This document shows positions 20,330-61,826 of a stretch of DNA of 64,000 nt, piece after piece. Source of the stretch: Podochytrium sp. JEL0797. Lineage: Eukaryota; Chytridiomycota; Chytridiomycetes; Chytridiales; Chytriomycetaceae. The stretch is from contig JADGJG010000003.1 of NCBI GenBank assembly GCA_027596195.1, positions 1-64,000 of the forward strand, written 5' to 3'. The notes under the pieces are model-generated. The model had not been told where the DNA came from and ran no database searches. It saw only the letters and a program-made list of their open reading frames with translations. Position numbers and translations under genes: made by a program. Numbering within the stretch: the first letter of the stretch is position 1; every line of letters begins with the position of its first letter.

Positions 20330-22433
20330 TCACTCCGACAACTGCGCCTCCACAAGCGTCCTAAACTTGCCATCCTCCTTCCCAATCAACTCGTCATACT
20401 TCCCCATCTCCACGACCCTCCCGTCCTCAATCACAACCACCACATCAGCCTGCTGAATCGTCGACAGCCGGTGCGCAATCGTAATCACGGTACGTCCTTG
20501 CACGATATGCTTCATGGCATCTTGCACGAGATTCTCACTATTCGCATCGAGCGCGGAAGTCGCTTCATCCATGACCAAAATCCTTGGGTTCTTGAGCAAC
20601 GCGCGAGCGATGGCAATGCGTTGTTTTTGACCCCCCGACATGGCGACACCCTTTTCCCCCGTGTACGTGTCAAAGCCGGACGGGAACGCGGTGATGAAGT
20701 CGAGAGCGTGCGCCTGGTCCGCAGCGGATTCGATTTCAGCTTGGGTTGCGGAGGGACGGCCGTAGGTGATGTTGTCGCGGATGGTGGTGGCGAAGAGGGT
20801 GGGTTCTTGGGAGACGAAGGAGATGAGGGAGTTGCGGAGGTGGGAGCCGGAGAGGGTGCGGATGTCGTGGCCGTCAATGAGGACTGGGAATTCGGTTTAG
20901 AGGCGCGATAAGGGAGTGATGGGAGACGAACAACAATACGTACTGGATCCACTCGCGGGGTCGTAGAAACGCAGGAGGAGTTGGGCAATGGACGATTTTC
21001 CGGAGCCCGATTTTCCAACCACGGCAACGTTGGTACCAGGTTCGATGGTGAAGCAGAGGTCTTTGAAGATCGGTGCATCAGGGCGAGTCTGAAAACATGG
21101 CAATCAGTTAGTTGCATTACATAGAAGGAGAGTAAGAAAAGCATACCGGATAAGCAAATTCGACGTTCCTGAATTCAATTTTTCCCTTCACATTCTCCAA
21201 CTCAATTCCAGACTGGCTTTCCTGAACGGTTCCCTTCGATTCGAGCAGTGCAAACAAGCGGCTGGAAGCACCAACGCCTTTCATGAGTTCTCCAAAAAAT
21301 GAACTCAATCCAATCATCGAAAAACCGGCGTAGGTCGAGTAGAGGAAGAACGAGGTCAACTCGCCAGGAGTAATGCCTCCCGAAGCAACCAGCGATCCAC
21401 CATAATACAAAATCGACAGAATGACCAAATTGCCCGAAAACCCAGCCCCACTGAAAAACGTGGCATTCGCCCAAGACTCCTTCATGCTCAACTTGTACAC
21501 TTCATGCGTCTCCTTGATGTAAAGTTTCGATTCTCTCGGCTCTTGCGCGAATGCGCGAACCGTACGGATCGCGTCGAGTTTTTCTTGAGCGAGTTGTGTG
21601 ATTTCGGAGGTCGCTTTTTGGGTTTGTTCCGAGAGTTTTCGCATGGCTTTTCCGTAGTAGATGGCGGCTACGGCTACGGGAGGGATAATCGCCATCATGG
21701 TCAAAGTGAGAGGGGCGCTGACGTAGAAACACATTCCAGTTGCCACGACGGCGGTTACACCGTTACGCAGCCCATCCGAAAAGTTCTGGGTCACGGATTT
21801 CCCGACAATCACGGTATCCGCTGAAAGCCGCGAGATAATCTCCCCGGTACGGTTCTCATCAAAGAAGCGAATGTCTTGGTTCAAAATGTTGTCGAAAATA
21901 CGCGTGCGGAGTCGTTCAATGATTCGTTCGCCTGCTTGACGCATGAGCATGATGCGGCCAAAGTTGGCTGAGGCGCCCACGAGGAACACGCCCATGAGAC
22001 CGGCAAAGAGGTGTTCGGTGGGGACGGAGGACATGAAGTGGAGGAGGGGGGAGTCGGCGACTTTGAGGCCCATTTGGATCATGACAAAGTCCATGATTTT
22101 GCCCATGGAGAAGGGGATTGACTGGGGGGGTGGTTGTGAACAAGTTCGTAAGGAGGTGTTAACAACACGTCACGGGAAGGAATGGATCAGTTTTACCATC
22201 GACACTGCCGACGACACCAGCAAACATCCGGCAGCTCCCGTCAGCAACCCGGCCTCTGGCTTCGCAAGGCGCAGGATGCGGGCCATCTCGCGGGTGAAGG
22301 ACGGTTTCTTGGGGTCCGCAGCCGGCTTTGTAACCGAGAAGGCTCGTTTGGCAACGAGGCCCGCGGAAAAGGAAGTTCTGAAGCCCGCCTTCGCATGAAG
22401 TGGCGAAAGAAGCACTTGGCGAACGGCAAGCAT
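20330..22433 (-). CDS. Mitochondrial ABC half-transporter (ABCB8/ABCB10/MDL type)
   Basis: Exons complement(22197-22433, 21147-22121, 20944-21088, 20330-20883) give 636 aa. The N-terminus (MLAVRQVLLSPLHAKAGFR) is a basic, acid-free presequence. One transmembrane domain of about six helices spans ~60-370, with the coupling-region block LAQEKLDAIRTVRAFAQE. The nucleotide-binding domain has Walker A GKSGSGKSS (~429-437), signature MSGGQKQRIAIARALL (~534), Walker B ILVMDEAT (~554) and the H-loop AHRLSTIQQADVV. As a half-transporter it would homodimerise in the inner membrane. Homologues export matrix peptides (MDL1) or act in heme/iron metabolism (ABCB10, ABCB8); the substrate cannot be read from sequence. 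Confidence 0.9.
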
Positions 22434-22523
22434 CCTGGTTTTTGACAAGCTGTCAAAAAAGGAAAAGGGAATAAATTTTGTTCGAGATTTTCAAGATTGC
22501 CAATCGAAACGAGCAAACCGAAT
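22434..22523. promoter_or_regulatory. Compact bidirectional promoter
   Basis: Ninety bases separate the divergent ATGs of the ABC transporter (22433, minus) and cyclic-nucleotide channel A (22524, plus). The interval is A-rich on the plus strand; no canonical TATA box was seen. Confidence 0.45.
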
Positions 22524-25500
22524 ATGAACGCGTCATCCGTGGCCGATCTGCACCGTCTACTGGTCGCAGATATCCTGGAATTGCGCACAGATATGATGGC
22601 GAAAACCGAACGCCTACTTTCGCTCCTCGGTTCGTCTGCGAGCACGGCGCTCATGTTACCGCCCTCCACAGCGGCAGGAACCAGGCCCTCTGCTACGCGC
22701 CAATCTTACGCTGGTATCAGACCGAGTAGTGTAGTTTTGCCCGCTCAGAATCATAAAACCGTTCAAGATTCTCACTCATCTCTTTTGTCATTGGGGATTC
22801 GAATGAGCGAAGACGATTATCGCGCTGATGTTGAAGCCAACAAATTCAATAACACGCCACCAAAGTACGGCAAAATGGAAAAATCAGAATCCATGTCTCG
22901 AAAAGAACTTGCGCTTCGTTCCGTAAAGAGTTTGCATCTTCCAGACTCCACTGTTCCTGTCAAACATGAACCCATGCCGTCAACGACCAAACACGCGTCC
23001 CAACTCTTAATCAACGGAAACCTCACGCCGGTTTTGTCGCGAAAAACAACCACCGGCTCGTTGGGGAGATCGCGTTCGTTGACGGGAAGGCCTGACCGTG
23101 GCGCGCCTCCGCGCAAGAGAAACTCCTTATTAATTGCATCCCATGAGCCGAGCAAGTTGAACGAAAGCGTGCTGAATCCTGAACAAGAAGCTGCTAGCCC
23201 CCAAAGTCAGGCTGTGAAACAAAGTTTCGGATTCATTGCAGCCCAGCCAGAAATTGAAAACCGCATGTCCTCACCAATCTTACCAGACTGTAGCAAATCA
23301 TTCAAACCAAACCATTCAACGGTCGAAATTCAGCTCGATGATATCAGCATCCGTCCACCCTCGTTCGTCGATGACATCTTGCGCGACAGTTTAGCATCGG
23401 GAACCGACGCGTCTCGAGCCAGTGGATCTAGTAAAGACATGCCTCGCGGGACTGAGATTGGGAAACCGCGCAACGAGTCTTCTGATACGATCGACAGCAT
23501 GTTTGGAGCCTACGCGTTTTCGAGTAAGCGAAACTCGTCGAGACCACCGCCACGCCGACGCGCGAGTCGTCTTGCGTCAACTGGGTCCATTCCTCCAGAA
23601 AATCTTCCGGAAGCGGTGGATGAAACGGAGCAAATCGCTAGTCAAATGTCACAAGCGCCGAAGCCGATCGTGAAACCTCAGACGTTTGAAATTCAGCACT
23701 TGGAAATGAAATACAGCCAATTCACATATATTGAACGCATCAGATTCTTTTTGATGTTACCTGCGTTCGATGCAAAAGGAAAGCGGATCCATTTGAATTA
23801 CTTTGACAAGTCGGATTTCGAAAACATCAACTTTTACAAAAATGGGTTGCACCCGAAATCATATTTCAGCAATCTATGGGATTTATACATGTCGCTGTTA
23901 TATTTTGCATGTTTGTGGTTGATTCCATTTTTGGTTTCGTATGATTTGAATACTTCGACTGTGGTGGCGCTACAAATAATGTAAGTTTCGATCACTTCAA
24001 TCTATCAGCCTATAAATTTGCTGTTTCAAGAATCACTGTAATCTTCGCGTCCGACACGATCGTCTCCGTCTTGACTCCACAACCACATGCCTCAAGTTCG
24101 TACACGAGCTTCCGAGAATATGAATCGTTGCGTTTGAAACTGGCAGATTGGAGTTTGCAATACTTAGCGGTTCACTTAGTGTTCGACGTCGTCTCTTCTG
24201 TAAGTATTTTCTGAACCTTCTACTAGAATGAAAATGAAAGGAAACAAATCAGATTCCCTTTGATCTCCTCATCACAAGCGCAAATAATTATAAAATCCTC
24301 CTTCTCCTCCTGCGTCTCATCCGGCTTTACAAACTTCCTGCTATGATCTCTCGGTGCGCGTTCTGCGTTCGTGTCAAAATGTGGATCGAAGAACGGTTCG
24401 GGACGGGCATTTCGAAAACCTTGCCGATTGCAGTCGTGATTTTCTACTTTATCCATTTCAACGCATGCTCGACTTACTATGCGGCCAAACGGACGGGGTT
24501 CGTGGGATGGCAGACGGCGTGGGTTGACTTTAACGGGGCCACGCTGTTTGACTTTTATACGTGGACCTTCTTTTTGGTGAGAGTGAATGTATCGGTTTGA
24601 TGTGCTAAATATGTTCCTGTTCCTGCAGTCTGTTGGAAATTTATTCCCCACGGCGACAAAGTGCGTGTTGAGAGGCCGATCGTTCAATTCAAAATATTGA
24701 AATTTATTCTCACAGACCACAAACAGCAGTAGAACAAATCGTGGCAATTTTTTATATCGTGTTTGGTGCAGTCTTGTACGCTGGATTCGTGGGTTATATC
24801 TCTTCAGCCGCCATCTCTTTCGACGCATCGGGCAGACTTTATAATCAGAAAATGGAGGAGCTCATAGACTATGTCAAGTGGAAGAAACTAGGCGAAGAAA
24901 CAAAGGATAAGCTGATCTCGTACTGTAAGCGGTTTGCGTTCTTTCACGCGATTTTTTTTTGCTCTCATCAACTCAAAAATCCATCGCAGACGAAACAAAA
25001 TATCGAGGCAAATATTTCGAAGAAGACGCCTTGTTGGCTGATATGAATGACTCGCTGCGCGAGGTAATCTCTTCCACTTTACCCTCTGTGTCACCAATCT
25101 GAACAGAACCCTCCAGGAAATCTCGAGCCACAACACACGAAAACTGATTGAAAAAGTTCCCTTCCTCCGACGCGCCGAAAACGACGGACGAGATGATATT
25201 TTCTTCAACAAGATGTCCACTATCTTGCGGGCACAGTATTATGTGGCAGGAGATTTCATCACAAAGCAAGGTGATTCTGGGAACGAAATGTTTTTCATCT
25301 TGTCGGGCAAAGTGGATGTGTTTGTGAATGGGAATAAGGTTGTAAGCATGTATGATGGTGCCTACATTGGAGGTTGGTTCGTTACTTCTATCCCCCTTGA
25401 TATTGTGAATATTGACACGAAATTAAACCAGAAATCTCGCTAATAACGAGAATGCTGCGAACTGCCACCGTCCAAGCTGCCTCCCCCACGATTCTATATC

Positions 25501-25601
25501 GCTTGACTCGGAATGATTTCCAGCTTCTGATCACCGAGTTTTCCGATATGAAGCGCAAAATTGATGGACTTGCAGAGGAAGGTCAGAAGTTTTTGAAATA
25601 A
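22524..25601 (+). CDS. Cyclic-nucleotide-gated HCN/EAG-type channel A
   Basis: Eight exons (22524-23980, 24031-24199, 24253-24576, 24629-24660, 24716-24924, 24990-25063, 25117-25372, 25432-25601) give 896 aa. About 395 disordered residues precede the core. GLHPKSYFSNLWDL is the pre-S1/S1 signature (HCN: IHPYSDFRFYWDL); S2 has FASDTIVSVL and S3 VFDVVSSIPFDLL. S4 is short with few charges (LLLLLRLIRLYKLPAMISR). In the pore, WTFFLSVGNLFP replaces the GYG/GFG filter. The C-linker (KLGEETKDKLISYYETKYRG, LREEISSHNTRKL) precedes a cNMP-binding domain with GGEISLITRMLRTATVQA, including the Glu and Arg that bind cyclic nucleotide. It is probably a plasma or flagellar membrane cation channel; selectivity is unknown. 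Confidence 0.9.
24828..25106 (+). repeat. Identical tract shared with channel B (copy 1)
   Basis: These 279 bases match 28098-28376 with no difference, across part of exon 5, intron 5, exon 6 and most of intron 6. The flanks and the third paralogue differ, intron 5 of channel C being unrelated in sequence. This suggests recent gene conversion. Confidence 0.85.
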
Positions 25602-25736
25602 TATGTATGCGAATGACTGCACTATTTGATTAAAAAACACGTGAATTGAGAACTGGTGTGGTTTCATGATCAGCGCAAATGGGATAAGTTCTTGGAGGTG
25701 ATCTTCAAGATTTTCATTGGAAAAGAGAGACCGAAT

Positions 25737-28700
25737 ATGAACGCGTCGTCCGTTGCTGATCTGCATCGTCTACTGGTCGCAGATATCGTGGAATTACGCA
25801 CAGATATGATGGCCAAAACCGAACGCCTACTTTCGCTACTCGGCTCTTCTGCGAGCACGGCTCTCATGTTACCTTCCTCCACAGTGGCCGGCGCTAGGCA
25901 CCATGCAACGCGCCATTCTTTCGCTGGTGTTCGACCAAATATTGGAGTCCCGCTAGCTCAAAATCATAAAGCCATGCAAGATTCTCACACGTCGCTTTTG
26001 TCTTTGGGGATTCGAATGACCGAAGACGATTATCTCGCTGATGTTGAAGCCAACAAATTCAATAACACGCCACCAACGCACGATAAAATGGACAAATCAG
26101 TATCCAATGTACCTGCCAAACATGAACCGTTGCCGTCAACGACCAAAGGCGAGCCCCACATCTTAACTAAAGGAGACCTCACACCGATCCTGCCGCGTAA
26201 AATAAACACTGGTTCGTTGGGGAGATCGCGTTCGTTGAGTGGAAGGCCCGTCCGTGTCGCGTCTCAGCGCAAAAGAAACTCTGTATTAATTGAATCCCGT
26301 GAGCCGAGCAAGTTGAGCGAAAGCGTTTCCATTCGCGGAAATGACAAGGTAGTCAACAAAAATCCGCGTTTGAAACCCAGTGTCGGGTTCGTTGGACTAG
26401 CTGATGAGTCGAATAAGATAAATGAAAGTGAGCTGGATCCTGAACAAGATAGTGCAGTCGATAGCTCCCGAAGTCAGCCTGTGAAACAAGGTGTCGGATT
26501 AAGTGCAGCCCGGCCTGACCAGATATCCTCACCAATGTTACCTGACAACAGCAAATCATTCAAACCAAACCATTCAACGGTCGAAATTCATCACGAAGAG
26601 ATCAACATCAATCCACCCTCATTCGTTGACGAGATGTTTCGCGATAGTATTGCATCGGGAATCGACGCGTCTGGAGCCAGTGAATCCAACAAGGACGCAC
26701 GTGGGAATGAGATTGGAAAACCACGCAACGAGTCGTCAGATACTATCGACAGCATGTTTAGCGGCTACGCGTTTTCGAGCAAGCGAAACTCATCGAGACT
26801 GCCGCCACACCGACGCACAAGTCGTCTTGCGTCAACTGGGTCCATTTCTCCAGAAAATCTTCCGGAAGCGGTGGAGGAACAAGAGCAAACCGTTAGTCAA
26901 ATGTCGCAAGGGCCCAAGCCAACCATGAAACCTCAAACCTTTGAAATTCAGAACATGGAAATGAAATACAGCCAATTCACGTATCTTGAACGCATCAAAT
27001 TCTTTTTCATGTTGCCTGCGTTCGATGCGAAAGGAAAGCGGATCCATTTGAATTACTTTGACAAGTTTGACTTTGGCTATATCGACTTCGTTAAGAATGG
27101 GCTACATCCAAAGTCATATTTCAGCAATTTATGGGATTTATGCATGTCGTTGCTGTATTTCGCATGCTTGTGGTTGATTCCATTTTTGGCTTCGTATGAT
27201 TTGAAAACTTCTGCTGTGGAGGTGCTTCAAATAATGTAAGTTTCGATCATCCCTCCAGCCAATCTGCCTTTAACATTGTGTTATTTCCAGAATCACCGTC
27301 ATTTTCGCGTCTGACACGATCATCGCGTTGTTGACTCCGCAACCACATACCTCGAGTTCATACACGAGCTTCCGAGAATATGAGTCTTTGCGTCTGAAAT
27401 TAACAGACTGGATTTTGAAATACTTAAAGATTTACTTGGTGTTCGACGTCGTCTCTGCTGTAATTATTTTCTGAACCATCTAATAGATCATTAACCAACC
27501 AACAAAAATTAGATTCCCTTTGATCTCCTCATCACAAGCGCAAATGATTATCAAATCCTCCTTCTTCTCTTGCGTCTCATCCAGCTTTACAAAATTCCCG
27601 CAATGATTTCGCGATGCGCGTTTTTCATTCGCGCAAAGCTTTGGATTGAAGAACGCTTCGGGACGGGCATTTCGAAAACCTTGCCGATTGCAGTCGTGAT
27701 TTTCTACTTCATCCATTTCAACGCATGCTCGACGTACTATGCGGGCAAAAAAACGGGGTTTGTGGGGTGGCAGTCTGGCTGGATTGACTTTAATGGGGCT
27801 ACGCTGTTTGAGTTTTATACGTGGACATTCTTTGTGGTGAGTGTGAATGTATCGGCTTGAAGTGTTAAACATGTTCCTGTTGCTACAGTCTGTTGGGAAT
27901 TTGTTCCCCACGGGGACAAGGTGAGTGTTGAGAGGCCGGTTGAATTCACAGATGCTGACGCACGTCTTTGAAAAAATAATTACAGACCGCAAACAGCAGT
28001 AGAACAAATCGTGACAATTTTTTATACTGTTTTTGGTGCAGTCTTGTACGCTGGATTCGTGGGTTATATCTCGTCAGCCGCCATCTCTTTCGATGCGTCG
28101 GGCAGACTTTATAATCAGAAAATGGAGGAGCTCATAGACTATGTCAAGTGGAAGAAACTAGGCGAAGAAACAAAGGATAAGCTGATCTCGTACTGTAAGC
28201 GGTTTGCGTTCTTTCACGCGATTTTTTTTTGCTCTCATCAACTCAAAAATCCATCGCAGACGAAACAAAATATCGAGGCAAATATTTCGAAGAAGACGCC
28301 TTGTTGGCTGATATGAATGACTCGCTGCGCGAGGTAATCTCTTCCACTTTACCCTCTGTGTCACCAATCTGAACAGTACCTTCCAGGAAATCTCGAGCCA
28401 CAACACGCGAAAACTGATTGAAAAAGTTCCATTTCTGCGACGCGCTGAAAACGACGGACGAGATGATATTTTCTTCAACAAGATGTCCACTATCTTGCGG
28501 GCACAGTATTATGTGGCAGGAGATTTCATCACAAAGCAAGGTGATTCCGGGAACGAAATGTTTTTCATCTTGTCGGGAAAAGTGGATGTGTTTGTGAATG
28601 GGAATAAGGTTGTCAGTATGTATGATGGTGCCTACATTGGAGGTGGGTTGGAGTGATGGAACGCTGTCGAATATTGAACTGTCCTCCAATCCAAAACAGA

Positions 28701-28869
28701 AATCTCACTGATCACGAGGATGCTACGAACTGCTACCGTACAAGCAGCATCACCCACGATTCTTTATCGGTTAACGCGGAATGATTTCCAGCTTCTGATC
28801 ACCGAATTTTCCGACATGAAGCGCAAAATTGACGGACTGACAGAGGAGGGCCAAAAGTTTTTGAAATAA
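25737..28869 (+). CDS. Cyclic-nucleotide-gated HCN/EAG-type channel B
   Basis: Eight exons (25737-27235, 27291-27459, 27513-27836, 27889-27920, 27986-28194, 28260-28333, 28387-28642, 28700-28869) give 910 aa. Exons 2-8 have exactly the same lengths as in channel A (169, 324, 32, 209, 74, 256, 170 nt). The N-terminal start MNASSVADLHRLLVAD and much of the disordered region are shared with A, plus a small insertion (about 14 residues net). The pore reads WTFFVSVGNLFPTGTRPQ, again without GYG. The cNMP-binding cassette is EISLITRMLRTATVQA. S4 has a similar low charge (LLLLLRLIQLYKIPAMISR), with one Arg of channel A replaced by Gln. It is a tandem duplicate of A. Confidence 0.9.
28098..28376 (+). 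repeat. Identical tract shared with channel A (copy 2)
   Basis: Partner of 24828-25106; identical through two introns although the neighbouring exon sequence has drifted. Confidence 0.85.
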
Positions 28870-29004
28870 TATGTACCAATGAATGCAATATTTAGTTTAC
28901 AAGCTGCAAAATCGTGCTTATCCTACATTTTATTTTACCGGTTCCATGTACGTTGATCGACAAGATTTACATCAAACCGGAGGATCAGCCCGCCCCCCAA
29001 AAAC

Positions 29005-31893
29005 ATGAACGCGTCCACCGTTGCCGACCTGCACCGTCTCCTCGTTAATGAAATTGTCGATATGAGAGCCGAGATGCTGTCCAAAACAGAGTACCTGTTG
29101 ACTCTTCTTGATTCGTTTGCCGCGCCCACGAGAAATCCCACAAAACAGTCGATTTCGCCGGCCCGACGCGCGTTTGCCCAAGATATGCAACGTTCCTCCA
29201 AGGCTGTATCTTATCAGTTCCTCTCACATGAATCACACGCTTCCATGTTGTCCCTCGGGATTCGGCTGACGGGAGAAGATTACAGCGCTGATATCGAAGC
29301 CAACAAGTCCCTGCCCCCAAAGTATGACAAAATGAAGGCAGAGAATGTAAAATCGAGCAAAAATCTGATGATTGAGTCCATGAGGAGCATGTTTTTGCCG
29401 GAAATCTCTGAACCAAAAAGAACGAATACGATGCGAAGGAAATCAATTTTGGGAAGTGAAATGATGTCTTTGCCTCGAGATGGCAGGAACTCCTCTGCAA
29501 TTCCCTATGTTACATTTTCTTCGAATCTAGACGCGGAGCAGCAGCTGCGATATCCTGAAAATACGCACCAAAGTCCACCACTGGTCCCAGATGTCCGGTT
29601 TACCGAGCACCCAGAGGCAGATGAGCAGACCAAATCAGCTCACGACTCTCATCTTGCAGGCATTTCCGGGATTGAAATCCAAATCAATGATAACACTAGT
29701 ATGTTTGCGAATAGTTTGAGACGCAGTGTCGCGTCGCGCGATACAGCGGAGCCCCGTGAGAACATCAGGGAAACATCTACTCCTGACGGCATGATTCGCA
29801 CATACGCCTTCTCTCCACCCACGCGCACCCCAGGAAAAAATTTCGATGATAATTCTGAGATTGAAGCCAAGCGAACCGAAAGTGTAAACTCCCATCCAAA
29901 AGGCAATAAGCAAAAGAACGTATCGGAGTTCGAAATTCAGCTGAATGAAATGAAATACGGCCAATTCACTTATCTCGAACGAGTCAAATTCTTTTTGATG
30001 CTGCCTGCGTTCGATACGAAAGGAAAACGGATCCATTTGAATTATTTCGACAAATCAGATTTCGAAAACATCAACTTTTTGAAGAATGGACTACATCCGA
30101 AATCGTACTTCAACACTCTATGGGATTTATTAATGTCGATGCTGTATTTGGCTATTTTGTGGCTAATTCCGTTTATGGTTTCGTATGATTTGAAAAATTC
30201 GACAGTGTTGGCGCTACAAATAATGTAAGTTTCGATTACTCCATTTTTGTCAGCCTTTAAATTTTAAATTTCAAGAGTCACCGTCGTTTTCGCGTCCGAT
30301 ACAATCGTCTCTTTGTTAACTCCGCAACCACAAATCTCGAGCTCATACACAAGTTTCCGCGAATTTGAATCACTGCGCTTGAAGCTTTTTGACTGGGTTC
30401 TCCAGTGGGCCAAGAACCATCTAATTTTCGACATCATCTCACTTGTAAGTTTTGAATCTTCTCCTTTTCGCCTTTTTTTTTGGCAACCCAGTTCCAGCTC
30501 TTGTTCAACCAAAAAAATAAGGTGCCTTTCGACCTTCTATTCACAACCACCAATCAAGATCGAGTCCTCCTCTTCCTCCTTCGCCTGGCTCGATTTTATA
30601 GACTCCCCGGAATCATCTCCCGTGGTGCTTTTCCCGTTCGTGTCAAGCTGTGGATTGAAGAACGCTTCGGAGCCGGCATCTCGAAAACGTTGCCGATAGC
30701 CGCAGTAATTTTCTACTTTATTCACTACAATGCATGCACTACTTTCTATGCGGCCAAGAAAACGGGGTTTGTGGGATGGCAGAACGCGTGGATGGATTTT
30801 GACGATGCGACCGTGTTTGAGTTTTATACCTGGACGTTTTTTACGGTGAGCTTACGGTGATTAGCGAAAAATTTGAAGTGGTACTAAACTTGCTGTTTGA
30901 AATATTCCAGTCTGTTGGAAACTTGTTCCCAACAGCCGCAAAGTCAGTTCAATCTCCCCCATGTGTTGCCGTTTTTAACCTCACCCAACCCCTCTTTTTA
31001 CAACACAGGCCGCAAACAGCTGCAGAACAAATTGTTGCAATCATATATATTGTATTTGGTGCAGTATTGTACGCTGGATTCGTGGGTTATATCTCTTCAG
31101 CGGCCATCTCTTTCGATGCATCTGGCAGACTTTACAATCAGAAAATGGAGGAGCTCATAGACTATGTCAAGTGGAAAAAACTAGGTGATGAAACAAAGGA
31201 CAAGCTGATCTCGTACTGTAAGGAATTGCATTGCTTCTCGCGAGTTTTTGTAGCTGTTCATCACAACCAAAAAAAATATGCCAGACGAAACAAAGTATCG
31301 CGGCAAATATTTCGAAGAAGACGCTTTGTTGGCTGATATGAATGATTCTCTGCGCGAGGTGGGTGGGCAAACCCTTGTTACATTCTCTCTGAACGCCCAC
31401 ATTGCAGGAAATCTCAAGCCACAACACGCGAAAATTGATTGAAAAAGTACCATTCCTGCGACGCGCCGAAAATGACGGACGAGATGATATTTTCTTCAAC
31501 AAGATGTCCACCATCTTGCATGCACAATACTATGTCGCTGGCGATTTCATTACCAAGCAAGGCGATTCCGGGAACGAAATGTATTTCATCTTGTCAGGCA
31601 AGGTGGACGTATTTGTAAATGGCAATAAGGTTGTGAGTTTGTACGATGGTGCCTACATTGGAGGTTCGTGATTGATTTGAGGGAATCAATGTCGAATATT
31701 GACGGCACTCCAACCCAAAACAGAAATCTCACTGATCACAAGAATGCTGCGAACAGCCACCGTGCAAGCTGCATCTCCCACGATATTGTATCGCTTGTCA
31801 CGAAACGATTTTCAACTTCTGATCACCGAGTTTTCGGATATGAAACGAAGAATTGATGCATTGGCAGAGGAGGGGTACAAGATTCTGAAATAA
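29005..31893 (+). CDS. Cyclic-nucleotide-gated HCN/EAG-type channel C
   Basis: Eight exons (29005-30224, 30276-30444, 30522-30845, 30911-30942, 31009-31217, 31285-31358, 31408-31663, 31724-31893) give 817 aa. Exon lengths 2-8 equal those of A and B; exon 1 is shorter because the disordered N-terminus lacks several blocks. It starts MNASTVADLHRLLVNE. Pore: WTFFTSVGNLFPTAAKPQ. S4: FLLRLARFYRLPGIISR, with one more Arg than B. The cNMP pocket EISLITRMLRTATVQA is intact. Introns differ in sequence from those of A and B, so this is the oldest split in the array. The donor after exon 4 (GTCAGT) is weak but keeps phase. Confidence 0.9.
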
Positions 31894-31964
31894 AATAAAC
31901 GGTTCGAAATTTATCATGAGCGAGCATTGTTACAAATCAAAATCGAAAAAAAACAAAAACAAAA

Positions 31965-34535
31965 ATGTCAAACAACTACCGCGGCTCGAATGGACACCCG
32001 GCAGCGGCGCCTTCGCTTTCGTCGTTTTCGTTCCAAAAGAGCGCCGCTCAAACAGCACCTCAGAAGGACTCGGACGCAGGAAAGGGACAATACTCGGACG
32101 CAGGAAAGGGCCGCCTGCGCTTCGACCTCAAAAAGACGTCGAATGCGCCGCCTTTGCAAAGGACACACAAACCACACGACTGGAGCAAGAAAGCGAACGA
32201 CGACAAAATGGCAATGCGGAAAGAGCGTTTCGCACAGCCGCAAAAGAAGAAGGTGCTGTACAAGCCAGAGAAGGGAATGCTCGACAACAAGGGCGTCAAG
32301 GAACAGTCCGATTTCATTGGCTTTGGTGACCTGGGGCTGCAAGAGGAAGAGCCCGAAGTGGACGCGCACTGGAAGCGGAGGCTGCCCATCAACGACAAGG
32401 ATCCATTGGATCTGGTCTATGACTTGCCACCGCCGATTTGGGCACACGATGGCCGCGAATATTCGTCGGATTTGACCGAAATGTGCGTAATCCTGTCAAT
32501 TGCCCGCTCCCTCGATTCATTGTCGATCCATCCCACACACTTTCGCCAAGAGCATTCTATCCAATTCCACCGGTTTCGATATATTCCTGAATTGCTTTGG
32601 ATCTATTCCGTGTTTGGGCGAGTGGGAGGTGGCGGCGCGAGGCGACGCGTTGTCAATTAATTGAAACCACCCACCCCCCGTTTTCGAATGTGATTCTGAT
32701 TTCCCATATGGTCTCTAGGTTCAACCAAGAAGTCCAGGACTACGTGCATTACATCTCGCCAACCCCCGCCGAACACTCTCTCCGCCATCTCACAATCGAG
32801 CGGCTCCGGTTCGTCGTGTCTCGGCTATGGCCTCAAGCGACCGTCGAAGTGTTTGGATCGTTTAGTACAAAGTTGTATTTGCCCACGAGGTGAGGCCACT
32901 TGTGTGTGCGATTTTGAATTCTGGGGTTATAATATCTTCTTATCGCACCTCCCCATAGTGATGTGGATATCGTGATTATGGGAACCGGATTACGCGCCCC
33001 CGCGTCCTTGTTTGAATTATCCGTCGCACTGAAGGATCACGGGTATGCCACCGCATGCCAAGTAATCGCCAAAGCCAAAGTAACTCTCGCCTTCCCCCCC
33101 CCCCATTCACGTGTTTCCTTTTACCAATCTAACGCGTTTTCACCCCACACTCGTTCCCCACTCCCACCCCGAAGGTCCCCATCATTAAATACACCGATGC
33201 CCTCACAACCTTCCCCGTCGACATTAGCATCAACATGCCCTCCGGTCTCCAAGCTGCGCAAATCGTGTCTCATTTCTTGCAGGAACCGAATGGCGTTGGG
33301 GAAGCGATCCGCGGGTTGATGTACCTGTTGAAACAGTTTTTGTTGGCGCGGTACCTCAATGAACCGTTTAACGGCGGGTGTGGGAGTTATGCGTTGTTGT
33401 TGCTTGTTAGCTCGTTTGTGAAGGTGAGTGTTTCGCGAAAAGCCGGGGTGGGGGTTTTCGAACGCGTTTCAAACGCGTTTTTATTCTATGCGCAGCGAAT
33501 ACTAATTTCCAGACTCCCCAGCTACACCCCCTCATCCAACTCGGTACCATCGATCCTTCCCAAAACCTCGGGTTTTTGTTTATGGAATTCCTCGAACTCT
33601 ACGGCCGCTTCTTCAATTTCGACCAAATCGGCATCTCATGTGACCTCAACAACGGCCCCGAATACTTTTTGAAACGCGATATGCCCCCGATGGCGAGAAA
33701 GATTGGGTTGTTGACTTTATTGGATCCTCAGGATTCTTGTAAGTCCGGACGCGGGAGTGTTTTTGATTCTTGAGGAAACTGACTCGTATTCCCAACAGCC
33801 AACGACGTGGGAGGCGGCGCCTTCAACTTTTACACGATCCGCGGAGAATTCTTTCGCGCTTTTCAGAGAATTCAATGCATCTTTGGTGCCGCGCAACACC
33901 GCAACCTCCACCAATCGCGTCGCAAATCACGCCGCGGCAACACCACCACACCCCCGAAACCTCCACTCAGTATCCTCAGCGCGATCCTGACGGTCCGCAA
34001 GGGGTTGTACGCGTACCGGTGTGGGATGGAGGAGTTGTGGGATAAAGTGCAAGCTGGGAATGTTGTGTTGGGGGTTGAAGCGGGGGTTTGGGAGGGGGTT
34101 TGTGAGGGGATGAAGCGGCAGGAGGTGGAGAAGCGGTATATGCGGCATGGGAAGCGGAAGCGGGATGTGGCTGTTGTAGGTGAGGAGGAGGAGAAGGAGG
34201 CAGCGGTGGGTAGTGAGGAGGAGGAGGAGGAGGGTGCGGTGCATATGGGTGTTCCAATGAGGGATGTGACTGGTGCGCGGGAGGAAGTGCCGTATAAAAA
34301 GCGACAAGAAACCGAATGGAAAGAGTGGGAACGAGAGTTTTTCGAAACGTTGAAGGAAGGGAAGGAAGAGTTGGGGTATGAGTCTGAGGTGAGTATGGAG
34401 ATTTCGGATGGGGAGGAGGAGGAAGGGCAGATTGTGAGTGTCGCGAAGAAACGGCGGGTTGGGAGTGATGATGAGGAGGAGGAGGGGAAGGGAGCGGGGG
34501 CGAGGAATCCGTTGAAGAAGAAGGCGAGGGTTTGA
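31965..34535 (+). CDS. Non-canonical poly(A) polymerase TRF4/PAPD5-like
   Basis: Exons 31965-32482, 32719-32889, 32959-33079, 33175-33423, 33513-33738 and 33799-34535 give 673 aa. Residues 1-170 are disordered and basic. The nucleotidyltransferase motif FGSFSTKLYLPTSDVDIVIMG (~218-238) contains the GS and the two catalytic Asp. VPIIKYTDALTTFPVDISIN supplies the third Asp. Central and PAP-associated regions follow (GEAIRGLMYLLKQFL, NEPFNGGCGSYALLLLV, NLGFLFMEFLELYG). The C-terminus is acidic and then Lys-rich (KKKARV), probably nuclear. Family members add short oligo(A) tails for exosome decay in the TRAMP complex. It begins 71 bases after the channel C stop. Confidence 0.92.
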
Positions 34536-55612: not shown

Positions 55613-55669
55613 ATTCATTGTTGTTTAATTTGTCATTGTTTGAGTCCTTTCCACCTCGAGCACTTGAAC

Positions 55670-58600
55670 ATGGCAGCAAACGAACGGCCTCATGATATTG
55701 TATCCCTCCTTCGAGATCAATATTACTATCGGAACGAGTCTTTCGTCTATAACTGCGGCAGCAAGACCCCAGTTATTGCATCGCCCACGAAATCCATTTT
55801 CGCATCACTTGCCATTCTGAAGCCAGCAGAATCAACGGAAAAGCTATCTTCCTCTCCTAAGAAGCAAATCACTTCAAAGTCGTACCAGACCGTACGGGCG
55901 CATATTGACCACGCGCTCTCTCAGACGCGGAATCAGGAGAATGTCATCTGCACAGACCTGCTGTTGGTGAAATCCATGCAAATCCTGCGTCCAGAACGCT
56001 ATAGACATAAATCTGCTCTGACTTTGAATGATGTTGAGATTGAATGGAGGAATTTTGGAAAGAATGAACGAACTGGCAATTTGAGGCCGATCCGATTGGG
56101 AGGATACACGTCTTTATCCAAACTGGTGCCAACTAGTAACATATCCGGAAGAAGTCATACCTCTGGAAAATTTGCGAATCCTTCGTCTTCTCGCGCACGA
56201 GAATTTCCAAGAAAGCTTGATTTCCGTGAGAAAATTCAGCTCGATTCGGTTGAGGACGTGGATGAAAAGTCGACTTTGCTTCCTGCCGAAACAAGAAACC
56301 TATCTCGCCTTGCGAGTTGCAAAAGACAACATTTGAAAAGGAAGGACTCTGTACCCCTGCTTCGAACGTCAAAAAGCAGCTCAGACATGCGATTATTTAA
56401 TGTGAGTCCTTTTCATGTGCAAAGCGTACTGATTTATCATATTTATAAAGGGCACCAATTCGAGAACCGTTTCAACTTCCATCTTCCCAAAATCGCGAGA
56501 GAATCTGTTTCCATCCACCTTTGATATTCATCACCAATCACGTCAATTGGCCCATCCAAAAAAAAAGTCGTTCACGGCACCTCACCCATCCACCCTCCAA
56601 CAAGCTCCCTTCCTTCCCCCCAAGCCAAAAACCACCAACATCCTCGCAGAACATCGCGAACACATTATTCTTCTCCAACTCAAACAGAAAGGCCCGCGAA
56701 AGCCACCATCGCCTCCACCCCCTGATGAGTTTGAATACGAGACACGTTTACGCAGTGCCCATGCAACGTTCCGAGTGCAGGACCTTGTCAGAAGGACAGC
56801 GAGGGTGGATCTCGAGGATAACAATATTCCTGGTGACTACGAATACGACAAGAAAATGCGTGGATTGTTTCTGCCGAGCTTGTTTTCTGGCTATGCACCA
56901 GAGGATTATCGCGGCAACAGTGCAAGGGAGAGGAAGGAAGCTTTGACGCCAAAGATGCCAGCAATGATTCAAAAGCCTGTTGCCCCTACTGGCCCTGAAA
57001 TAGTCAATCTGAATAGCCAGAAACGGAAAAGTTTATTCTTGCCACCTGCCGGAAATATAGGCAGGACCGCGGCCTTGTCAGGAGGGAAGAAGATGTCCCC
57101 CAATTCAAAAGGATCAGCAAAATTGCGAAGGGAATCGCAAAAAATCAACAAACCCAGCAAATCCGAGGTCACACGAAGCATCCCTCAGCCAGCCCCACTT
57201 GGAACTTTAGAGGCGGCCAAGAGCGCAGACGAGGAGTCTCCGCACGAGATCAATCTCGTCCAAATGAGATGGGAAAGGGCCCTCTACAGCGTGCTGAAAC
57301 AGATTCGCATCAAGAAAATGGTTCTCGAGGACGGAAACAGACCCGATTCTAGTGCGGCTCAGGTGAAGCTTTCAACTGCCAAGAAAGACGCGAAAGACTT
57401 GCTCGGCTTATCGCAGCTTCGGAGATTTTATGATTTGAATGTGGGAGAGAGGAATAATGACAAGGAAATGGATATACTTGATGGGATTTTGGGGAAATTT
57501 AAATGCTTTATCAAGTTGTCTCCAGTGGTGAGTGAGTTTGGAAGAGGCCATCCTTACTAATTCATTTTCCAGGTGCGATATAAACTGTATAACGCGGCGA
57601 CGCTTGTATCATATCCTCGCAACACTGTCATGATTCGCGAGGGACACCAGGCAAAATTCTGGTATATCGTCTTATCTGGAGAATGCCTTCAAGTTCTTCG
57701 CCCGAATACACCCATGACTGTCACGTCCAAAGTTTCAGTAGGTGGATCTGTTGGCGAATTCTCCGCCATGTTTGGAGCAACCAGTGACAGCGAGTTAAGG
57801 CACACCCAAGCGTATTGTCTGATGAGGACAGTATTTCTTCGAATTGAGAAGCAAGACTTTATGGCAATTTCCAGGGAAGCAAGAGGCCTTGATACCATTG
57901 TGATGGATTTCTTTACTTCTGTGCCCGCGTTCTTTGGGGTAGAAAAATCGCTGCTGACTCGCCTCTGCCAGAGAAGGTGATACTTTACCATTAACTTCTT
58001 CTGCATTTAACCAAAATACATATAGCATTGTGAGGCGATTCGATTCGGGTCAAGTGATTCTCCGCGCTGGCGATTTCTGTTCAAACTTGTACTTCATCAT
58101 CAAAGGCAAGGCTCGGGCTTTGCACATGGTCACATTCATCAAAGTTGACGGCGGCGAGCAGACAACAGGCCAATTTGGTGGCAATTCGAGACGCCACAAG
58201 TACTCATTGGCCCCTGGCGGTATGGATCCAACTCTCAAGCTTGGGCCCGACGATGAGATTGTTCGTGAGCTCGCAACTGTTCTCGATCTGCAAAACGGAA
58301 TGTTTTTCCCGCCCATCCGACCTTCCAAGATTGTTCTTGAGCAACAGCAAGCGCTTGCTAAACTGGAATCAAAGGCAACTGGTCAAGCACGACCGGGAAC
58401 CCAGCAAAGAAAACCATCCGCGGCCCCAGGGCTAGGAGATTTGAGCGCTGACATGCACGCACTTCAAGTTCCTTTTCATTTTGTTGCCATGGAAAAGACG
58501 GAACTTTGTGTTGTGGCCGTGCAAGATCTTCATGAGATTCTCCCAATCACGGCTTTAAATCGTATCATGGAAAACCGCTCAATGACGGATATCGGTACAC

Positions 58601-58782
58601 AGGAAATCGAAGAGCGATATTTGAGTGCCCAGGGGTGGCGGGACACGGAAAACATTGGATCCAAAACCTTGCAAATCGGAAACTTTTCGAAAGACTCGAG
58701 TTGGAGTCACCCAGTCACGGCAAACAAGTTCAAGAAATCGGGGGAGATAATGAACGATCCATTTTCGCATGGAAGATTTTGA
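55670..58782 (+). CDS. Protein with two cyclic-nucleotide-binding-like domains, copy 1
   Basis: Exons 55670-56401, 56568-57527, 57573-57976 and 58026-58782 give 950 aa. Residues 1-560 are mostly disordered but contain conserved EFEYETRLRSAHATFRV and KKMRGLFLPSLF..APEDYRGNSARER blocks shared with copy 2. CNB-like domain A starts at ~565 (KLYNAATLVSYPRNTVMIREGHQAKFWYIVLSGE; GGSVGEFSAMFG). Domain B has SGQVILRAGDFCSNLYFIIKGKARAL and then long insertions. The phosphate-binding cassettes are non-canonical (VGEFSAMFG..DSELRHTQA). The layout resembles CNBD2-type proteins linked to sperm or flagella. Whether it binds cAMP/cGMP is open. The acceptor for exon 2 (AAAAAAAAAG) is unusual. Confidence 0.75.
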
Positions 58783-58885
58783 ATAAAGGGGAATGGGGAA
58801 CGAGAGGAGGGGAGAAAAGAATGAAGTTTTAGTGTCGATCATCTGAATTTTCGAAGAGAGCGCGCATCCCAATCCCATTGATTCG

Positions 58886-61826
58886 ATGATCGCCGATGGT
58901 TCCAGGACACGAAATGGCCATGAGAATATTCTTGATTCATATCGGCATCTGAAATCCGCACCGAATCGTCCGAAACTTCAAAAAACAATCCCCGATCAAC
59001 GCGCCGCATCTGGAGCAACCCATTGCAAGCAAAGCTTCTTCACCGATATTATGATTGTGAAATCAATGACGATCGAGAATCAACGACCCCTGTCGAGTGT
59101 GTCGACAGTTCCCTCGCTCAAACGAGAGGACTGGACGCGTTTCGGAAAGCAAGATCGAATCAGAACAGCAAAACCCGCACGTATATGTTTTGGAACCAGC
59201 AATCCTTGTTCTCCATTATCGAAACATCCGGGATGGCAAAGTTTGCATCAAAATCGAACTGCTGATTCAAACTACGACGAAATTGACGACGTTGACATGA
59301 ACGCGACAATTCTAGGCCCCCCGGTGAAAAAGCCGATTAAAAAGGTGATTAATATTCATCTATTCTTCGTGGCTGAACAAGCATATGGACTAGATACCTC
59401 TCCTCCCAAAACCACGCCAAAATCCCTTTTCATCATCCTTTTTTGTCCACCAACCCCCCATCCATTTGCCGCTTCCAGCGGCAAAAAGACCATACACAGC
59501 TCCAGACCCCTCGACCTTCCAAAAAGATCCCTTCATCCCACCACGACCAAAAACATGCAACATCGAAGAAGACCATCGTGCCAACATCCAGCGCCTCAAA
59601 TCCAAAATCAAACCCCGTCCCGCGACCCCACCACCCCCCATCCCAGAAGAATTTGAATTCGAAACGCGTCCAAGAAGCGCTCATGTGCCATTCCGATTGG
59701 AAAATTACATCAAGCAAACCACGTTGATGGATATTAGTTCCGGAACTTCCCTCCAAACCGCTGAATACGACTACGAAAAGAAAATGCGTGGATTGTTTCT
59801 GCCCAGTTTGTTTGCTGCTGATGCGCCTGAGGATTATCGCGGAAATTCGGCGAGGGAGAGGAAAATCGTCTTGACTCCACGGGTTCCTGTTGCTGTTAGA
59901 AAACGAGTGAGCCATGTGGTTGGCGTAGTTGGTGGATTACGGGATGCACAGGGACGGAATTTTGTATTTCAACCGGACGGAATGAACGAGATGGCCCTTG
60001 AGGGTGCAAGGAGAAAGTCTGTTGCTGGCAAAGCACCTCCACGTCCGACCTCGGGCGAAGAATCAAGGCAGAAAAAATCGGCTGTTGTTCAAGATACTTT
60101 GCAGGATAGAATGGCGGCAGCCTCAGGAGGGGAACCCCCTCGCGCAAGAAAACTTTCTAGTCTCCTCCACAAGGACATGTTTTTACGACCGAAACCGTTG
60201 AAACCTGTAAAGCCAATGCACATGAAGGATGGGATGGTGTCGGATGAAATCAGCTTGGTGGAATTGCGCTGGGATTTGGCCATCTATAGTGTCTTGAAGC
60301 AGATTCGAATCAAAAAGAGCACACTGGAGGACACCATGCGACCGGCGGAGGAGGAATCAAAGGTTGCCAAAGCCGAGCGTGCGAAAAAGGAAAAAATCGC
60401 GCTGGCTGGGGTGGCGCAGGTTCGCAGGTTTTTTGACATCAACATGGGAGAGCGAACGGACAAAGAGCTCGACACCCTGGATGCTATTCTGGGAAATTTT
60501 CAGTGCTTTGCGAAGCTGCCTCCAGTGGTTCGGTTCAAATTGTACAACTGCTGCATGGTTGAAACCCATGCACGAGGCACAGTGTTGATCCGCGAAGGGC
60601 ATCAAGCAAAGTATTGGTACGTTGTTCTATCGGGAGAATGCCTCCAAGTCCTCCGCCCGGACACTCCCATGAGCGTGACAACAAAGATTGCGGCGGGTGG
60701 CTCCATTGGGGAATTTTCAGCAATGTTTGGAATGAACTCGAGCGAGCTCAGACACGCGCGATCCACTTGCTTGATGCGCTCCGTATTTCTGCGGATAGGA
60801 AAGGTGGGTTAATAAATTGGGACGCATGATGAGAGATTTCTGCTCACTCAGCTGTATTTCTTAACCTTGGATAGGAGGATTTTACGGCAATATCGAGGGA
60901 AGCCAAAGGATTGGATTCCATGGTATTAGAATTCTTTTCAACCGTTCCAGCCTTTTTCGGGCTTGAAAAAGAGGTTTTAACGCGTCTGTGTCAAAGAAGG
61001 TGGCGCGCTTGCGTTCTAGCATTATATCCTCAATTTCTAACATTTTTTTTCCAGCATCGTTCGTCAATTCAACGTCGAACAAGTGATTCTCCGAGCAGAA
61101 GACTACTGTTCGAATTTGTATATGGTAATCCGAGGAAAAGTGCGAGCCCTCAGCATGGTCACCTTTGTCAAAATGGACTGCGGAGAGCAATCCAAATTCT
61201 TGGCCACCGGAGGAAGTGCGCGACGCCACAAATACAGTCTCGTGCCTTTTGGATTAAACACGGGTCTCCACCTCGGTCCTAATGATGAGGTTGTGAAGGA
61301 GCTTGCAACTGTACTCGATTTGACTCCTGGAATGTCGTTTCCGCCCATGAAGCCTTCCAAAGTCGTGCTCGAGCGACGGCAGTATTTGGAAAAGATCCAA
61401 AAAGAAGGCGGGGCCGTATCGCTAATGGAAGAGCGGAAGAAAAGCATGGGATTGCCTCCAGCTGTTGTTGATACAGACGCACTGCAGCTTCCCTTTTCTT
61501 TTATTGTAGCCGAAAGCGTCGAAGTGGTGATTGTGTCGTTTCGCGACCTTCGAGAGATTTTACCAACCGTTGCGTTGAAACGATTGATGGAGCAGCGGTC
61601 GTTGACGGATGTGAGTGTTCAAGAAATTGAGGAACGGTACATGAGTCTTTTGGGGTGGCGAGATATTGATAACCTTGGTGGGAGGTCGTTGAGGATTGAT
61701 TCGTTCCGCAGTGATAGTTCGTGGAGCAACCCGGTCGTCAAGAACAAATTCAAAAAGAATGGAGAGATTGCGAATGATCCGTTTTCGAATAAACGACCTT
61801 TTCAATGTGACAGCCGTTGGTCATGA
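58886..61826 (+). CDS. Protein with two cyclic-nucleotide-binding-like domains, copy 2 (altered C-terminus)
   Basis: Paralogue of copy 1. Exon 1 from 58886 (to ~59344 if its donor is GTGATT), exon 2 ~59479-60803, exon 3 60875-60999, exon 4 61055-61826. The 59344/59479 pair does not keep phase; a donor at ~59236 (GTTTGC) would, so the first junction is unresolved. Blocks FEFETRPRSAHVPFRLENY and KKMRGLFLPSLFAADAPEDY match copy 1. CNB A has TVLIREGHQAKYWYVVLSGE and GGSIGEFSAMFG; CNB B has EQVILRAEDYCSNLYMVIRG. It lacks the intron that copy 1 has before CNB A, but has one inside CNB A. The ending NDPFSNKRPFQCDSRWS replaces the NDPFSHGRF of copy 1 because the segmental duplication joins here. Confidence 0.72.

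Follow-up and report, generated by a model that had tools for sequence, protein, structure and literature searches.

Three tandem cyclic-nucleotide-binding channel genes of a chytrid fungus carry a shortened filter region without GYG or GFG

We analyzed a 64,000-nucleotide (nt) stretch of DNA from the chytrid Podochytrium sp. JEL0797 (contig JADGJG010000003.1, positions 1 to 64,000 of the forward strand; here referred to as the window), which holds a tandem trio of channel genes, c1, c2, and c3. All three lie on the plus strand, and each resolves into 8 exons whose spliced reading frames are separated throughout by GT-AG introns. A single predicted chain combines S1-S6, a P-loop, a C-linker, and a cyclic-nucleotide-binding domain (CNBD), which is the architecture of the CNBD-channel superfamily. 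A Pfam scan of c1 and c3 at E values up to 0.1 returned PF00027 alone, with 60 bits in c1 (residues 795-874) and 63.7 bits in c3, and no PAS domain. The genes and their parts are as follows.

22524-25601, plus strand: channel gene c1, 896 amino acids; spliced frame with GT-AG introns of 50-65 nt
22524-23980, 24031-24199, 24253-24576, 24629-24660, 24716-24924, 24990-25063, 25117-25372, and 25432-25601, plus strand: c1 exons
24629-24660, plus strand: c1 32-nt exon, encoding the predicted pore-helix end SVGNLF, then P-T-A-T and two bases of K
24629-24660 running on into 24716-24719, plus strand: c1 filter equivalent PTATKP, in the register given by the alignments
25117-25601, plus strand: c1 exons 7-8, end of the C-linker and CNBD, with pocket motif IGEISLITRMLRTATV
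25737-28869, plus strand: channel gene c2, 910 amino acids; spliced frame
25737-27235, 27291-27459, 27513-27836, 27889-27920, 27986-28194, 28260-28333, 28387-28642, and 28700-28869, plus strand: c2 exons
27889-27920, plus strand: c2 32-nt exon with predicted pore-helix SVGNLF; filter equivalent PTGTRP, running on into exon 5 from 27986
28387-28869, plus strand: c2 exons 7-8, CNBD; the spliced protein is 99% identical to c1 over C-linker and CNBD
29005-31893, plus strand: channel gene c3, 817 amino acids; spliced frame
29005-30224, 30276-30444, 30522-30845, 30911-30942, 31009-31217, 31285-31358, 31408-31663, and 31724-31893, plus strand: c3 exons
30911-30942, plus strand: c3 32-nt exon with predicted pore-helix SVGNLF; filter equivalent PTAAKP, running on into exon 5 from 31009
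31408-31893, plus strand: c3 exons 7-8, CNBD, with PF00027 at residues 716-795

A preliminary description of this DNA had proposed three tandem cyclic-nucleotide channels without a GYG or GFG filter, and the spliced frames, the CNBD, and a frame scan bear this out. Across 22401-31950, neither strand holds GYG or GFG in a usable frame: the lone plus-strand match to G[YF]G, at 29258, is followed directly by a stop and does not share the frame of c3 exon 1, and the minus strand has two matches. The introns that flank the 32-nt exon measure 52-66 nt.

The position of the filter was read from a MAFFT alignment of 185 family rows and 8 further channel rows, 7 of these canonical; unless another denominator is given, family counts refer to the 166 of the 185 rows with an aligned pore, the 19 rows lacking one being left out. 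SVGNLFP, which the preliminary description had taken for the filter, is predicted to comprise the C-terminal residues of the pore helix followed by a Pro, with VGN inside the helix and the Pro in place of the filter Thr/Cys, because five alignment and model tests agree. The filter equivalents are PTATKP in c1, PTGTRP in c2, and PTAAKP in c3. MAFFT paired the EAG pore with YTWTFFTSVGNLFPTAA---KPQTAAEQ in the joint alignment of family and canonical rows. With hhalign, GNLFPMAF---KPQT of the family profile fell opposite TTMTTIGYGDIVPIT of a five-sequence canonical profile (E = 2.5e-50), and ANTFPITGF---RPV of the other family profile fell opposite the same segment (E = 1.3e-54); HMMER paired NtFpvTGY---rP with HMLCI-GYGRQAP of HCN4. 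AlphaFold2 models of two relatives place the pore helix at residues 437-451 of P0006 (pore Tyr 441, Gly-Asn 450-451; predicted local distance difference test score [pLDDT] of 93, then 79 for residues 451-460) and at residues 363-378 of P0129 (Tyr 367, Asn 377; pLDDT of 97 and 92). The glycine of SVGN is not a filter glycine, since its column varies across the family (Gly in 120 rows, Ala in 25, Ser in 19, and other residues in 2) and is helical in both models.

The spacing between pore Tyr and S6 Glu is 27 residues in 7/7 canonical rows; in the family it is 24 residues in 119/166 (c1-c3 included), 25 in 39/166, and of other lengths in 8. The loss of two residues put forward earlier amounts to three residues in the window copies and lies further downstream. 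Similarly, SVGNLFP is indeed identical in the three copies, but the actual filter differs among them. The site of the three-residue gap varies by aligner, falling at GYG (HCN1), after GY (hhalign and MAFFT), or further downstream (one HCN1 entry), and its exact position is less sure than the register.

Across the family, G[YFDE]G is found in 0/166 rows, and Gly at the second filter-glycine position is likewise found in 0/166. Numbered from the pore Tyr (Y0, Tyr in 164/166), Asn stands at +10 in 156/166 rows and Pro at +13 in 151/166. The first filter-glycine position (+15) is Ser in 67 rows, Gly in 56, Ala in 15, and Thr in 11, while +16 is Phe in 95, Tyr in 52, and Leu in 13, with Thr or Ala exclusive to the three window copies. 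At +17, where the second Gly would stand, Lys (56 rows), Arg (35), and Asn (21) prevail, and a Pro then follows the commonest of these, Lys/Arg. TG[YF] occurs in 38 rows and [VILM]G[YF] in 11. The early branches mostly read P[VI]TG[YF][RKQ]P, with VGY or TGY downstream of the helix VGN position. In the 109-row clade that includes the window copies, the first Gly is mostly lost too and is replaced by Ser, Ala, or Thr, as in PMSFKP.

Trees were built from 173 rows and from 149 rows (the latter without 39 of the family rows and five rows of the canonical set); P0239, a partial environmental sequence without GYG in the canonical set, was left out of them, and long-branch warnings from FastTree make the deep branching order uncertain. 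In a tree without the pore columns and with a canonical outgroup, reconstruction assigns the first Gly to the family root and places its loss at, or close to, the base of the 109-row clade (support of 100), of which 12/109 rows have Gly at this position. The history of this residue takes at least 8 changes in the 173-row tree. Judged from these sequences, filter loss is stepwise, with its stages visible as VGYA and VTGYR, then MSFK, then TATK. Two Spizellomyces members, P0134 and P0138, have an odd pore, ATVGGLQTSYNP, instead of NTFPITGFRP.

The window copies are under purifying selection and are not a recent defect. Pairwise ratios of nonsynonymous to synonymous substitution rates (dN/dS) among c1-c3 are <1 in all regions where computable: 0.05-0.20 for the pore (25 codons; 0.05 for c1 versus c3), 0.09-0.16 for S5-pore-S6, 0.13-0.15 for S1-S4, and 0.008-0.037 for the C-linker and CNBD, the most constrained part (0.035 for c1 versus c3). 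For the N terminus, the ratio is 0.42 between c1 and c2, and dS is saturated against c3. Together with the clade-wide absence of G[YFDE]G, these ratios uphold the earlier proposal that the pore change is selected. Part of the similarity between c1 and c2 has another source, in the following stretch.

24862-25308 and the matching c2 stretch, plus strand: c1-c2 near-identical stretch, introns included; gene-conversion-like

Identity here is 1.00, 0.98, and 0.97 in three 150-column blocks, compared with 0.67-0.95 in other blocks, and it looks like gene conversion. Since the 97-100% identity extends through introns, part of the downstream identity would reflect recent homogenization. The exon encoding SVGNLFP is not part of this stretch, c3 has diverged much further, and relatives have the same kind of motif.

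Three protein searches of 5.8 billion proteins, each scoring ~8000 word-sharing candidates, found the family exclusively in chytrids and unnamed environmental contigs among the matches listed (the best 120 of 128 in the first search), although such searches do not prove absence elsewhere. The chytrid genera include Chytriomyces, Rhizoclosmatium, Obelidium, Entophlyctis, Spizellomyces, Powellomyces, Synchytrium, Polychytrium, Rhizophlyctis, Gorgonomyces, and Quaeritorhiza, among others; a taxonomy look-up places four of the less familiar named genera in Chytridiomycota, and we take the remaining named genera to be chytrids. The long non-chytrid matches that were aligned (a green alga, an insect EAG, and environmental proteins) are canonical GYG or GFG channels. 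The third search, aimed at non-chytrid relatives and at BeCNG1, the zoospore K+ channel of Blastocladiella emersonii, returned chytrid and environmental members, along with CNBD proteins unrelated to the family and a pair of weak Ion_trans matches from environmental sequences. By sequence, the family's nearest solved relatives are HCN channels (PDB matches to HCN1 at 5e-49, CNGA1 at 6e-25, and GORK at 1e-22, and to HCN4 at 1e-110 with HMMER); structural comparison did not clearly separate HCN from SthK and CNG.

In S4, three positions at a spacing of three carry a basic residue in 73, 83, and 73% of rows, and the next three positions in the same spacing do so in 14, 17, and 0%. The 19-residue span holds 2, 3, 4, or 5 Arg/Lys in 30, 56, 59, and 21 rows, respectively; the preliminary description was right that S4 charges are few, but canonical rows hold only 3-6, so the difference is modest. 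A Pro lies two residues past the third S4 charge in 80/166 rows. The cyclic-nucleotide pocket described earlier is present, with its binding Glu in 168/174 family rows and Arg in 168/172, and with both residues kept, the family is likely to bind cyclic nucleotides. Thr follows the pocket Arg in 156/171 rows, which does not decide between cyclic AMP (cAMP) and cyclic GMP (cGMP) preference.

Beyond the trio, the same genome contains 38 clusters of exon matches. In 23 of these, 60 or more residues of S4-S6 are covered; the remaining 15 are fragmentary or match the CNBD alone, and some of them may be other proteins. A separate CNBD channel gene with TTTGYGD (L006, contig C912, 9482-13027) has its best PDB matches to CNGA1 and is a candidate counterpart of the BeCNG1 type. 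On contig C845 (37449-43563, L049-L053), two rhodopsin exons are each followed by guanylyl-cyclase exons on the same strand, and a third cyclase match lies on the opposite strand. This arrangement makes a cGMP role plausible, not demonstrated, and the sets resemble the rhodopsin-cyclases of zoosporic fungi (PMC7655827; PMC9616733). PF00211 (guanylate/adenylate cyclases) gave 33 exon matches on 11 contigs, a number that suggests a rich cyclic-nucleotide network.

We consider it probable, with considerable room for doubt, that the window holds three tandem paralogues of chytrid CNBD channels that have a short, poorly selective pore, are gated by cyclic nucleotides, and are used in zoospore sensing. 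A glycine-based GYG filter is the part that lets such pores pick K+. Here, S1-S6, the pore helix, the C-linker, and the CNBD are retained under purifying selection, while the filter region is three residues short (two in 39/166 rows) and has lost its second Gly, so that a four-site K+ filter would not form; the products are then most likely tetrameric, cAMP/cGMP-gated, little-selective channels. The tetramers would be opened or modulated by cAMP or cGMP with weak voltage dependence, and a short, wide mouth would let cations through without much selectivity, in a manner analogous to animal CNG channels but separately derived. A role in zoospore sensing would have a parallel in Blastocladiella, where zoospore phototaxis is linked to cyclic-nucleotide signaling (PMC4046227). 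Only tentatively do we entertain a more far-reaching version, in which the filter, two or three residues shorter and in many members encircled by Lys/Arg, gives a selectivity new for CNBD channels (non-selective, even anion permeable), and dozens of such channels per genome, their filters diversified, form a zoospore sensory repertoire.

The most serious competitor, which we think somewhat unlikely, is that the proteins are non-conducting cyclic-nucleotide sensors or regulatory subunits whose pore is dead or modifies partner channels. The second Gly is gone in all aligned members and the first in most, a Pro sits at the filter base, constraint is strongest in the C-linker and CNBD, and the many paralogues per genome fit heteromers, all of which would suit a sensor. 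A dead pore, however, does not obviously need the S5-pore-S6 constraint seen here, and the pore helix is strongly kept at Y0, +10, and +13. Equating the genes with chytrid orthologues of BeCNG1 is improbable. Homologues of that channel are reported in Chytridiales, Synchytrium, and Spizellomyces by Galindo 2022 (PMC9616733), but BeCNG1 carries GYGD (PMC4046227), and the separate TTTGYGD gene on C912 matches CNGA1 while the window family matches HCN. We rejected identity with BeCNG1 on the filter signature and these PDB matches; the BeCNG1 sequence itself was not compared.

A filter made of SVGNLFP itself, that is, EAG SVGFGN minus FG as in animal CNG, has very little to recommend it. The letters SVG..N resemble SVGFGN, and the CNG filter is also non-GYG, namely TIGE (PMC7576140), but this register would shrink the pore helix by six residues. 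VGN falls within the helix with both hhalign profiles, MAFFT, HMMER against HCN, and the two AlphaFold models of relatives. Moreover, 44/166 rows have Ala or Ser instead of the Gly, and early branches show VGY/TGY downstream; we therefore rejected this register. We give practically no credence to a gene-model artefact in which an alternative exon restores GYG/GFG. The pore exon is a mere 32 nt, which would favor such an error, yet the frame scan found no usable-frame G[YF]G, the flanking introns measure 52-66 nt, and independently annotated proteins of other chytrids share the motif kind; this candidate was likewise rejected.

Two further features of the window lie outside the trio.

31920-32660: gene adjoining c3
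55613-61826, plus strand: a further cyclic-nucleotide-binding protein, apparently in two tandem copies

The gene adjoining c3 resembles the second half of P0075 (31% identity, 5e-21), a gene model from Chytriomyces hyalinus in which a channel is joined to domains whose accessions we take to be of nucleotidyltransferase type. The c3 neighborhood thus seems conserved, and P0075 is likely a mis-joined public gene model. Within the second feature, the open reading frame (ORF) at 59394-60812 has PF00027 at 27 bits, just below the cut-off of 27.5, and similar ORFs lie at 55613-58782. No channel domain was found in the scanned ORF, 59394-60812, which weakly resembles (E = 0.003) another CNBD protein of chytrids.

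Among known systems, the family is most like the HCN (pacemaker) channels of animals and choanoflagellates, with which it shares the segment before S1, S1-S6, the C-linker motif YYE.KY.GK.F.E, and the CNBD pocket, at 24-26% identity in the P0006 alignments. It differs in lacking the CIGYG filter, in a filter region three residues shorter, and in an S4 whose basic residues sit mostly at three evenly spaced positions, whereas the HCN S4 is long, with seven Arg/Lys and a Ser/Thr midway (PMC7576140). KCNH channels are not known to bind cyclic nucleotide monophosphates (cNMP), while the family keeps the cNMP pocket residues; it shares with EAG/KCNH the six transmembrane segments, C-linker, and CNBD, but no PAS domain was found in c1 or c3 and SVGFGN is absent. 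Names given to relatives in databases, for instance "Potassium voltage-gated channel sub H member 7," are misleading. BeCNG1 is likewise a CNBD channel of a fungal zoospore in a cGMP signaling context, but it has the GYGD K+ signature that the window family lacks; PMC8371127 locates it in blastoclads and sanchytrids, and PMC3410928 found homologues of neither CNG nor HCN among the fungal genomes that it examined.

Animal CNG channels resemble the family as CNBD channels without a GYG signature, but their filter is TIGE, that of the family has Lys/Arg most commonly after the aromatic residue, and their sequence match to the family is poorer than that of HCN. Plant CNGC channels also combine a non-canonical filter with a CNBD (PMC7576140), the sequence comparison being limited to PDB matches. 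In that same broad survey, strong departures from TVGY/FG are single-channel traits, animal CNG is the sole clade exception in the surveyed set, and plant CNGC is an additional non-canonical clade outside the analyzed set. A literature search that left supplementary files and bioRxiv preprints outside its scope found no description of this chytrid family or its filter, in keeping with the earlier suggestion of an undescribed class. Our best reading of the sequences is that this apparently undescribed pore class is one more lineage, alongside animal CNG and plant CNGC, in which GYG has been lost: another whole clade beyond the TVGY/FG norm, a zoosporic fungus whose channels have multiplied greatly, and a natural series for how a K+ filter is dismantled.

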